Source: Candidatus Peregrinibacteria bacterium
GTDB taxonomy: Bacteria; Patescibacteriota; Gracilibacteria; UM-FILTER-43-11
Length of the DNA: 55,129 nucleotides
Assembly (NCBI GenBank): GCA_016932495.1
Contig: JAFGCR010000005.1
Span: 1-55,129, forward strand
Reading direction: 5' to 3'
The notes below the pieces were generated by a model. That model did not search any database. It was not told the origin of the DNA and saw nothing but the letters and a program-made list of their open reading frames with translations. The first letter of the stretch is position 1. Every line of letters starts with the position of its first letter. This document shows, piece by piece, positions 1 to 1,920 of this stretch. Both the position numbers and the translations under genes were made by a program.

Positions 1-5
1 GTTTT

Positions 6-41
6 AACCCCTTCCCCGGTTCTCCCGGGGAGGGGGTTTTT
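6..41 (+). terminator. Intrinsic terminator at window start
   Basis: A 14-bp stem (6-19 with 25-38, one G-T wobble) closes a 5-nt loop and is followed by a T run to 41. It would end a gene lying upstream of the window on the plus strand. Confidence 0.8.
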
Positions 42-55
42 GGTATGCAAAAGTA

Positions 56-85
56 AAGTCCGGACTCCCTTTGGAGTCCGGACTT
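56..85. repeat. REP-type hairpin ahead of the transposase
   Basis: Perfect inverted repeat: AAGTCCGGACTCC (56-68), loop CTTT (69-72), GGAGTCCGGACTT (73-85). The arms contain the palindrome AGTCCGGACT, which recurs four more times in the next 800 bases, in and around the Y1 transposase gene. In known systems REP-associated transposases bind and cut hairpins of this kind next to their gene. Assigning this hairpin as the cognate REP is an inference from proximity and recurrence. Confidence 0.75.
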
Positions 86-164
86 GGGCTAAAAGCTTTT
101 AAATATTGACAGTAAACAAATGTTCACTTAAAATGCCCTCCTAGTATTTAAATGAATTAGTAGT

Positions 165-716
165 ATGCCATCAAGGAAAATAAAGCTTATAAATGAGCAA
201 TTTTATCACGTTTACAACAGGGGAATGGGCAAAGAAAGCATCTTTTTGCAGAGCAAAGATTATGAACGATTTTTATTTAAAATAGAGGAATATCAAAAGA
301 AATATAATATAAAAATATTTTCGTGGGCATTATTACCCAATCATTTCCACATGCTTATTAAGGCAGTTGGTGACCGAGTCCGGACTTCGCTCAACAATGT
401 TTCCTCCTTTTTGTTAAAATTACAACAATCACATGCGCTGTATTTTAAATATAAATACAACAAAATCGGCCCTATTTTTCAGGGGCGTTTTAATGCTAAA
501 CCAGTCTATGATGATGAATATTTAATCCAGTTGCTTCATTACATCCACCGCCAGCCAAGTCATCACAATATTTCATCTGACACTGCCTGGCCTTATACAT
601 CTTTAGGCTCTTATTTGTATGCGAGTCCGGACTCGGAACTAATTACTGTCGACAATTACTATGATAGTTTTAAAAATTTTGAAGGGCTGTTGGAGTCCGG
701 ACTCGAGCCATGCTAA
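165..716 (+). CDS. REP-associated tyrosine transposase (RAYT, Y1_Tnp/IS200-like)
   Basis: A 183-residue single-strand DNA transposase of the HUH Y1 family. The metal-binding HUH motif is visible as NHFHMLI near residues 59-65. The likely nucleophile tyrosine lies in the helix LLHYIHRQP (about residues 125-133), which matches the YI..NP region of RAYTs, and is followed by WPYTSLGSY. The ATG at 165 gives the complete family domain. The gene stands alone without the TnpB or paired ends expected of a mobile IS200/IS605, which fits a domesticated RAYT. The coding sequence contains three copies of AGTCCGGACT, read in three different codon phases (VRT, SPDS and ESGL). Class call is confident; whether it still acts is unknown. 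Confidence 0.88.
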   Translation: MPSRKIKLINEQFYHVYNRGMGKESIFLQSKDYERFLFKIEEYQKKYNIKIFSWALLPNHFHMLIKAVGDRVRTSLNNVSSFLLKLQQSHALYFKYKYNKIGPIFQGRFNAKPVYDDEYLIQLLHYIHRQPSHHNISSDTAWPYTSLGSYLYASPDSELITVDNYYDSFKNFEGLLESGLEPC

Positions 717-858
717 AATAAACAAGCATTTAAATAATCAAATCATGAAAAAAACACTCATTATCTTCGGCATTATCTTCTTTTTGCCGGTCAATGCCTT
801 TGCCGCCACCATGCTTTCCGAAACCATGAATCAATTGGCGCTGAACCAAGTCCGGACT
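377..858. repeat. Scattered AGTCCGGACT palindromes inside coding sequence
   Basis: Exact copies lie at 377-386, 624-633 (extended to the 14-bp palindrome CGAGTCCGGACTCG, 622-635), 694-703 and 849-858. The first three are in the transposase gene, the last in the following exported-protein gene. With the hairpin at 56-85 that makes six copies of a 10-mer in about 800 bases. I saw no other exact copy in the window; the nearest is a GTCCGGACT match near 25478. Confidence 0.85.
690..719 (+). promoter_or_regulatory. Putative promoter inside the transposase 3' end
   Basis: TTGGAG (690-695), 18-nt spacer, extended -10 TGC-TAAAAT (714-719). The -10 includes the transposase stop codon TAA, and the REP palindrome at 694-703 lies in the -35/spacer region. 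It would drive the gene starting at 745 with a leader of about 20 nt. Confidence 0.4.
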
Positions 859-1920
859 CTGGCCCCCATGAACATCGCGGCGGAGGCCGATGGCGAAATT
901 ACCGCAGAATACGGCATGAACATCATCATCGACGAAAACAACCGTGTATTGTGGGATGCGGTGGATTTGATGACAGCCACGGGCACCGCGGTAGATAACG
1001 GAAAAATAGCCGCTGAGTTTGTTCCTATATATGATGATAGCTATCGTGTACTGACCATTCCTGTTTTGGAGGATTTTGCAGCTGGTGAGAATGTCCGTTT
1101 AGTGGGAGCGAGAATGCGGGCGTATGACCGCGCGTTTGGCTCCCGGTTCCTTTATCTGGATTTAAATGGCGATCTGCTCCATGAAACCACTGATCTGAAC
1201 GCCTATAAAGTTACCGATGCCGACACGGTTACCGACCAAACCCCTCCCTACCAGATACAACATTTTACCGCCACGCTGGCAGAGGACCTCAAATCCATTA
1301 CTTTTACCTGGCAGAACCCGCCGGATTGGGATTTTGTAGGAACGACCATGGAACGCGTGCGGGTACGGGGTACTCAGACACAAGATATCGCCGTGTTCGA
1401 AAAAAGAACCTTTGCCGAATATACCGATACCGATATCCAAGAGGGTGATAGTCTGACCTATAAATTTTTTACACACGATAAGCGCAATAAAAGTGAACCA
1501 GTGGTTTATGAAGCCGTGGTCGAAACTCCGGCCACCGAAGAGCCTGCGGAAGAACCAGAGGAGGAGGAACCGGAAGAAGATATAATGGCCGATGAACACA
1601 ACCTCACGCCGGCCGAAATCGACTCTCTGCACTATTTTTATACTTATTACAAAGTCCGCGAGGCCATTAAATGTCTGCGGGATGACAGCCAGTGCCTGTG
1701 GGCAAAGATCAATCTGGTATACACGCAGGAAGTGCTGGGCCTTTCCGATGTCGATGTCAGCCTTTCCGACCGCGATATTTATCTGATCGGCATCCGCATT
1801 AAATGGCCGGAACAGCGCTTTCAGGAAAAGTGTGTGGAAGCCGATACGCCGGATAAAACCTGCGCGGCCTTAGGAAAGTCATTGACCCGTGCCCATTATT
1901 TCCTTGAAAGAAGCGAATAG
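745..1920 (+). CDS. Exported protein with FN3-like domain, unknown function
   Basis: A 391-residue protein starting at the ATG at 745; an in-frame upstream extension would run inside the transposase gene and is unlikely. Residues 1-20 form a signal peptide (MKKTLIIFGIIFFLPVNAFA). Residues about 165-260 look like a fibronectin type III or similar beta-sandwich (ITFTWQNPPDWDF followed by YTDTDIQEGDSLTYKFF). A Pro/Glu-rich linker follows, then a C-terminal helical domain of about 110 residues with five cysteines, which suggests an extracytoplasmic place with disulfides. I recognise no family for the C-terminal domain. No Shine-Dalgarno sequence is present. Confidence 0.75.
   Translation: MKKTLIIFGIIFFLPVNAFAATMLSETMNQLALNQVRTLAPMNIAAEADGEITAEYGMNIIIDENNRVLWDAVDLMTATGTAVDNGKIAAEFVPIYDDSYRVLTIPVLEDFAAGENVRLVGARMRAYDRAFGSRFLYLDLNGDLLHETTDLNAYKVTDADTVTDQTPPYQIQHFTATLAEDLKSITFTWQNPPDWDFVGTTMERVRVRGTQTQDIAVFEKRTFAEYTDTDIQEGDSLTYKFFTHDKRNKSEPVVYEAVVETPATEEPAEEPEEEEPEEDIMADEHNLTPAEIDSLHYFYTYYKVREAIKCLRDDSQCLWAKINLVYTQEVLGLSDVDVSLSDRDIYLIGIRIKWPEQRFQEKCVEADTPDKTCAALGKSLTRAHYFLERSE

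Follow-up and report, generated by a model that had tools for sequence, protein, structure and literature searches.

The window analysed here, one contig stretch of 55,129 nt from the 1.175-Mb genome (G000) of an uncultured Patescibacteria-type (Gracilibacteria-related) bacterium, holds near its beginning a gene for a REP-associated tyrosine transposase (RAYT) and six exact copies of the palindrome AGTCCGGACT, and is otherwise without this 10-mer (Table 1). Two copies form a hairpin 81-108 nt upstream of the RAYT start; three lie inside the RAYT open reading frame, where, read as VRT, SPD and (E)SGL, they occupy three different codon phases; and the sixth falls in the next gene. The six copies, their distribution and the three phases had been called in the original prediction, which counted them in about 800 bases and placed the hairpin at 56-85. 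Its judgment that chance was very unlikely is also borne out, with 0.0007 copies expected in 802 bases of the same composition and none found in 100 dinucleotide shuffles. The inverted repeat at the left end keeps part of its stem, and not its sequence, in a second species of the same genus (G001). The hairpin is retained in that species with an altered loop, and in two other genera of the same family (G006 and G007) a single palindrome occupies a similar place. Pfam and NCBIfam searches with the protein of the next gene gave no match.

Table 1. Features at the RAYT locus, in window coordinates
Feature	Position	Strand	Basis and remarks
Terminator-like inverted repeat (AACCCC...GGGGTTTTT) of the preceding transcription unit	1..44	+	Direct reading
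REP-like hairpin, two AGTCCGGACT copies (57-66 and 75-84)	57..84	.	Starts 18 apart; 13-bp stem, 4-nt loop; DNA z-score -6.7
RAYT, REP-associated Y1/HUH transposase, 183 aa	165..716	+	Y1_Tnp match, HUH + Tyr, fold
Intragenic palindrome 1, read VRT	377..386	.	Loop between HUH strand 60-67 and helix 78-98
Intragenic palindrome 2, read SPDS	624..633	.	Loop after helix 147-153; retained in G001, G006 and G007
Intragenic palindrome 3, read ESGL	694..703	.	Low-confidence C-terminal tail; retained in G001 and G006, decayed in G007
Next gene, hypothetical protein, signal-peptide-like N-terminus	745..1920	+	ORF; neighbourhood retained in G001
Palindrome 6, read QVRTL, in the next gene	849..858	.	Identical in G001

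Identity of the transposase

The assignment of the gene as a RAYT, made at the outset from the letters, is correct; it is a domesticated transposase of the Y1/HUH type. The protein passes the Pfam Y1_Tnp cut-off (30.4 bits against 23), and with NCBIfam NF047646, the equivalog model for REP-associated tyrosine transposases, it scores 49.9 bits, below the cut-off of 80, so that by that model it is a relative and not an equivalog. The HUH motif is H60-F-H62 and the candidate catalytic tyrosine is Y126, all three residues (H60, H62 and Y126) being invariant in 18 homologs. In the PDB, the best fold match of the AlphaFold model (mean pLDDT 84) is 4er8, the complex of E. coli TnpAREP with a REP hairpin, and a profile search leads to the same entry (E = 3e-9); phmmer with the sequence alone found nothing among PDB chains. 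The gene is single-copy in its genome, with one match at E<=1e-6. Four more Y1_Tnp-like genes are present there, all distant (C33:11913, C6:20241, C23:20577 and C18:28492), and around the three that were inspected (L194, L203 and L209) no palindrome of the AGTCCGGACT kind lies nearby.

Copies in the genome and conservation in the family

A genome-wide count had been proposed as a check that the 10-mer is not simply a common word, and it is not: there are ten copies in all, and the reversed control has 0 occurrences. The four outside the window are an intergenic hairpin pair (C45:5138/5155) and two copies within a prmC-like gene (C47:12687/12770). In 10/10 copies the palindrome is preceded by a purine and followed by a pyrimidine, and the unit is therefore at least 12 bp, at least RAGTCCGGACTY; in relatives the extended site is mostly GGAGTCCGGACTCC. 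Both outlying loci have features of their own. The C45 pair (L011:5120-5400) sits at a sharp switch from AT-rich to very GC-rich DNA with another type of gene, which is either an assembly chimera or foreign DNA. The prmC-like gene also holds an in-frame degenerate tandem repeat, GGACTAAGGACTAAGGACTACGGACTAAGTCCG (L012:4394-4426), translated as KGLRTKDYGLSP and forming an insertion relative to PDB homologs, and a further small repeat family, of the type CCAGTAATCAGTGACCAGTAATCAG, lies between two genes of the same contig (L012:5012-5080).

The four genomes of the family that have the RAYT hold 10 (G000), 24 (G001), 20 (G006) and 42 (G007) copies of the 10-mer, against 0-2 in each of 14 other family genomes, which lack this RAYT (Fisher p = 3e-4). 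A common genomic word unrelated to the RAYT is thus ruled out in the gene's own family. The locus in G001 is 82% identical in nucleotides, and its palindromes are unchanged, 6/6. In G006 and G007, where protein identity of the RAYT falls to 64-67%, the VRT and SPD sites persist, and there is a palindrome upstream of the gene. What is conserved is the DNA and not the peptide alone, since 30/30 bases of the three intragenic sites are identical between G000 and G006, against 69% for the remaining gene, as are 10/10 of their third codon positions, against a background of 44% (52% at codons for an unchanged amino acid). In G007 the DSGL peptide persists as GAT TCT GGA TTG with the palindrome lost from its codons, and a separate copy is found 15 nt past the RAYT stop codon; the protein, then, does not require palindromic codons. 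The original prediction had named peptides conserved without the palindrome as evidence against itself, and the outcome is divided: between G000 and G006 it is the DNA that has been kept, but G007 has one of the peptides without the palindrome, which means that the codons are not demanded by the protein. The suggestion that the three peptides are insertions also fared unevenly, being plausible for VRT, in a loop of variable length, but not demonstrated for SPD and ESGL, which belong to a C-terminal extension absent in most relatives.

The copies are nearly all exact. Sites with one mismatch number 9 in G006 and 16 in G007, against 9 and 17 for the reversed control, and 15 in G001 and 23 in G000, against 29 and 41, so that none of the four genomes has an excess of near-misses (for G001 this was also checked against 59 control palindromes). 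The counts of exact copies and near-misses are 20/9 in G006, 42/16 in G007 and, in the comparison with control palindromes, 24/12 in G001. Enrichment of near-misses is found elsewhere in the class, in G053 (25 against at most 5) and in G350 (27 against at most 7).

Forms of dispersal

The palindrome is dispersed in two forms, as hairpin pairs, mostly intergenic and sometimes in frame within genes, and as singles that replace codons. Pairs are common, with spacers mostly of 6-7 nt, and some of the intergenic pairs in G001 have longer flanks in common. In comparison with REPINs, many copies are single and the palindrome itself has no orientation. The tetranucleotide GT[AG]G stands at the palindrome foot in 4/40 singles and 1/71 pairs, which rules out a REP of the GTAG type.

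Outside the RAYT locus, the copies in G006 and G007 are mostly single palindromes within ORFs, many of them conserved genes; by sequence or PDB/Pfam matches the hosts include GuaA, AroB, QueA, TsaD, RsmI, RibD and PdxT. Sites at corresponding positions in the two genomes lie in CutA-like, MiaB-like and chorismate-binding enzymes (the first two named by sequence resemblance only). Aligned with PDB homologs, GuaA, AroB, QueA, TsaD and RsmI are gap-free at the site, as is PrmC of G000, at its second site to within one residue. When coding copies outside the RAYT are compared with G001 orthologs, 0/20 have a gap inside the motif; native codons have been replaced, and for the tested singles insertion is rejected. 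At these 20 sites a mean of 5.0 of 10 bases differ, against a background of 3.5 (p = 8e-5), so that just part of the change is site-specific, and the encoded residues are 45% identical to those of G001, against 67% in the flanks (p = 3e-4). The lower residue identity may come partly from sites having arisen at change-tolerant positions. Gaps near the motif occur in RibD, ComF, TilS and the PdxT pair, the last of which adds a few residues in some alignments. The balance of forms varies by genome: outside the RAYT locus G000 has no more than two copies that replace codons, most copies in G053 are intergenic, and the pairs within ORFs of G350, G030 and G148 resemble ordinary in-frame hairpin insertions. 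Gradual gain by point mutation, with selection, could also give codon replacement, without copying by the RAYT. The combination of no gaps and few near-misses is the pattern described for uptake signal sequences by Redfield and colleagues (PMC1626085).

RAYTs and palindromes across the class

The class was surveyed in 353 genomes, in draft assemblies, 54 of which have a RAYT at E<1e-8. Many of the RAYT genes have around them repeats of a 10-bp palindrome that follows the pattern A-NNN-CG-NNN-T and varies by lineage, namely AGTCCGGACT, AGACCGGTCT, ACCCCGGGGT, AGTTCGAACT, ATCCCGGGAT, AACCCGGGTT, ACACCGGTGT, AGGTCGACCT and AATCCGGATT. Several carry their own palindrome inside the gene at an offset of about 202-240, which is the VRT loop after HUH, despite the differing palindromes, and some have one in a second loop, at about 280. 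The clearest case is that of the sister RAYTs of G338, G339 and G340, 56-64% identical and adjacent in the tree, which carry ATCCCGGGAT, AGACCGGTCT and AGTTCGAACT, respectively, and each of which retains a copy in the same loop despite the switch. In the G339 gene the intragenic copies form a pair whose 21-nt spacing is that of the flanking pairs. The palindrome AGTCCGGACT itself is found in two separate clades of the RAYT tree, its own family and G172. The tandem RAYTs of G121, 96% identical, have the same palindromes at the same offsets and are apparently a recent duplication of the REPtron; on that contig (C6, L267) each has AGACCGGTCT at -33, +208 and +289. Many class RAYT genes (families f10, f14 and f21) contain in-frame TGA codons, consistent with the reading of TGA as Gly among Gracilibacteria relatives.

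Where the RAYT of a genome carries a given palindrome, that palindrome tends also to be amplified there. At least five copies of AGTCCGGACT are present in 7/54 genomes with a RAYT against 5/299 others (p = 6e-4), and at least five of AGACCGGTCT in 10/54 against 7/299 (p = 3e-5), while ACCCCGGGGT has 2-36 copies in six tested genomes with a ACCCCGGGGT-carrying RAYT and 0-1 in 24 others. The two RAYTs of G148 carry a different palindrome each, and that genome has amplified both (68 and 36 copies). Overall the association is a strong one, though incomplete at the class level and in draft assemblies. G350 has 135 copies of AGTCCGGACT, yet no RAYT carrying it was found in that draft genome; G053 has 68 copies although its RAYT carries AGTTCGAACT (70 copies). 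Similarly, no RAYT carrying the abundant palindrome was found in the draft genomes of the palindrome-rich G086, G030 and G166 or of the AGACCGGTCT-rich G118, G123, G151 and G161. In G350 (L034 and L038), the AGTCCGGACT copies form part of longer repeats (TTTATCCTGTGCCAAGTCCGGACTT) and often follow one another at 32-35 nt.

Relation to known systems

The original prediction regarded it as unusual for a REP element to lie within the gene of its own transposase, and here it must be corrected. In TnpAREP subclass 2.4, in-frame REPs lie inside the transposase gene, between HuH and Y (Quentin et al. 2018, PMC6006769), so the arrangement is known and not new in kind. The present gene has an in-frame palindrome between HuH/beta3 and alphaC, as that subclass does, but GT[AG]G is as a rule lacking at the REP feet; the system works like a subclass 2.4 REPtron and is for that reason not filed as one. 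Its palindromes, moreover, are short and perfect, are found also in the C-terminal tail, switch between sister genes, and recur elsewhere in the genome as coding copies that conserve length. A search of the text of PMC6006769 for Gracilibacteria, Parcubacteria and candidate phyla came up empty. With the E. coli TnpAREP and its REP/REPIN elements (4er8; PMC8266576; PMC3116915) the system shares the fold, the HUH motif with a single tyrosine, the flanking palindromes, their genome-wide dispersal and the co-evolution of protein and palindrome, which has been reported for RAYT and REP (PMC8266576). Unlike the E. coli REPs, the palindromes lack a GTAG guide tetranucleotide, occur in coding DNA, and are in many cases single, with no more of a loop than the central CCGG.

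Conserved genes, including ones that serve repair and tRNA modification, are likewise known to contain palindromic repeats of the GTAG/CGTC REP type, but those are insertions that lengthen the host protein (Di Nocera et al. 2013, PMC3733652), whereas the singles tested here swap codons without a gap. In that respect the closer likeness is to the USS of Pasteurellaceae and the DUS of Neisseriaceae (PMC1626085, PMC3630211), with which the palindromes share coding copies that arose by substitution, exact sites far outnumbering singly mismatched ones, close pairs in non-coding DNA and lineage-specific dialects (PMC3630211). They differ from these in being far fewer, palindromic and linked to a transposase gene. 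The unexpected part of our results is thus the codon-replacing singles in housekeeping genes, which bear the hallmarks of uptake signals and not those of published intragenic REPs. Nothing relevant on RAYTs or uptake sequences in Patescibacteria was found in the literature searched, nor any report of such an arrangement there, of palindromes without the GTAG foot, of switches with retained sites or of length-conserving coding copies.

Interpretation

The reading that we put forward, and whose chances of being right we would call about even, is that of a REPtron without GTAG in which the RAYT specifies the palindrome and a length-conserving process linked to the RAYT, whether drive or selection, spreads or maintains it. 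The REPtron would consist of one domesticated RAYT and its cognate palindrome, RAGTCCGGACTY here and GGAGTCCGGACTCC in the sister genera. That the palindrome is the REP-like element of this RAYT, as first proposed, agrees with its clustering at the gene and its RAYT-linked amplification; we infer that the RAYT is the protein that recognises it, probably as a hairpin in single-stranded DNA. The least certain step is a RAYT-linked molecular drive that would spread or maintain the sites: DNA in single-stranded form, whether at replication forks or on entry by transformation, would be processed at the palindrome, and site-bearing sequence copied over site-free sequence. Action of the process close to its own gene would explain why the cluster is densest at the RAYT gene, and the resulting peptides would be tolerated in loops and tails alone. 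The codons of the singles may have been overwritten by copying from single-stranded DNA, by biased transfer or by mutation under selection. Since the type of palindrome goes with the RAYT and inexact copies are few, we favour, at moderate confidence, a drive linked to the RAYT. The internal sites may allow self-binding or autoregulation, as the original prediction proposed.

The host role of RAYTs and the spread of REPs are long-standing questions, and copies that conserve length within housekeeping genes suggest that insertion is not the only way for REP-like elements to spread. Such copies link REPs with DNA uptake signals, two subjects hitherto kept apart, in bacteria believed to depend on DNA from outside. 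For specificity tests, ready-made pairs are at hand in these related RAYTs, among which there are at least nine short palindromes, in some cases switched between sisters.

Several other explanations have to be weighed against a RAYT-linked, length-conserving process. The most conventional is an ordinary REPtron of the subclass 2.4 type, in which REPs or REPINs were inserted around the transposase gene, in frame inside it and elsewhere, and the coding singles are old insertions. The published in-frame REPs between HuH and Y (PMC6006769), the 21-nt spacing shared by intragenic and flanking pairs in G339, the insertion-like ORF pairs of G350, G030 and G148 and the longer common flanks of some G001 pairs all fit it. 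It is nonetheless hard to keep for the coding singles, since none of the 20 has a gap in the motif, unlike the protein-lengthening REPs already published (PMC3733652), and since the GT[AG]G foot is missing and near-misses are not enriched in G000, G001, G006 and G007; as a full account we think it unlikely. We are similarly doubtful of selected double-stranded sites for the RAYT or another dimeric protein, which would be operators at the RAYT and chromosome-organising or regulatory sites elsewhere, in the manner of Noc, SlmA or MatP. Perfect dyads of 10-14 bp, singles in both coding and non-coding DNA and positions in the RAYT gene conserved across genera at the DNA level are what such sites would give; the G007 gene, with its third site decayed and a copy just past the stop codon, is in keeping with them, and point mutation plus selection is compatible with a length-conserving gain. 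However, sites of this kind normally tolerate mismatches, and near-misses here are at background; hairpin pairs, near-exclusive exactness and quick switches between sister RAYTs are unlike chromosome-organising sites. That the 10-mer recurs by coincidence, VRT, SPD and SGL being favoured peptides, accords with the conservation of the three peptides in close RAYTs and has a negligible probability, given the identical third positions, the three phases and the non-coding sites, and the distant RAYTs, in which both the peptide and the palindrome at the loop are different. Chance and peptide conservation are ruled out as the cause of the cluster, by the expectation of 0.0007 copies and by the third positions.

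The remaining explanations turn on DNA uptake. A more ambitious form of the RAYT-centred idea, to which we give little credence at present, would make the domesticated HUH transposase the specificity factor of a self-DNA signature, which would recognise a lineage-specific palindrome in single-stranded DNA and bias transfer or gene conversion towards its replacing resident codons; if true, Patescibacteria would have a dialect system like that of uptake signals, centred on the RAYT gene with its densest cluster of signals. Alternatively, the palindrome could be the uptake signal of a competence receptor, with the RAYT a passenger that gathered signals. This would account directly for the hallmarks of USS and DUS, that is, non-insertion, exact sites far above mismatched ones, coding copies and close non-coding pairs (PMC1626085), and for the lineage dialects (PMC3630211), and ComEC is indeed present. 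It is present, however, in 13/13 genomes tested, site-free ones included, and competence therefore does not discriminate between carriers and non-carriers. With 10-42 copies per genome in its own family, the palindrome also lies far below published uptake-signal densities, and uptake signals are not known to be palindromic. We consider a signal independent of the RAYT very improbable: the type of palindrome follows the RAYT that carries it, even where, as in G148, one genome has two.
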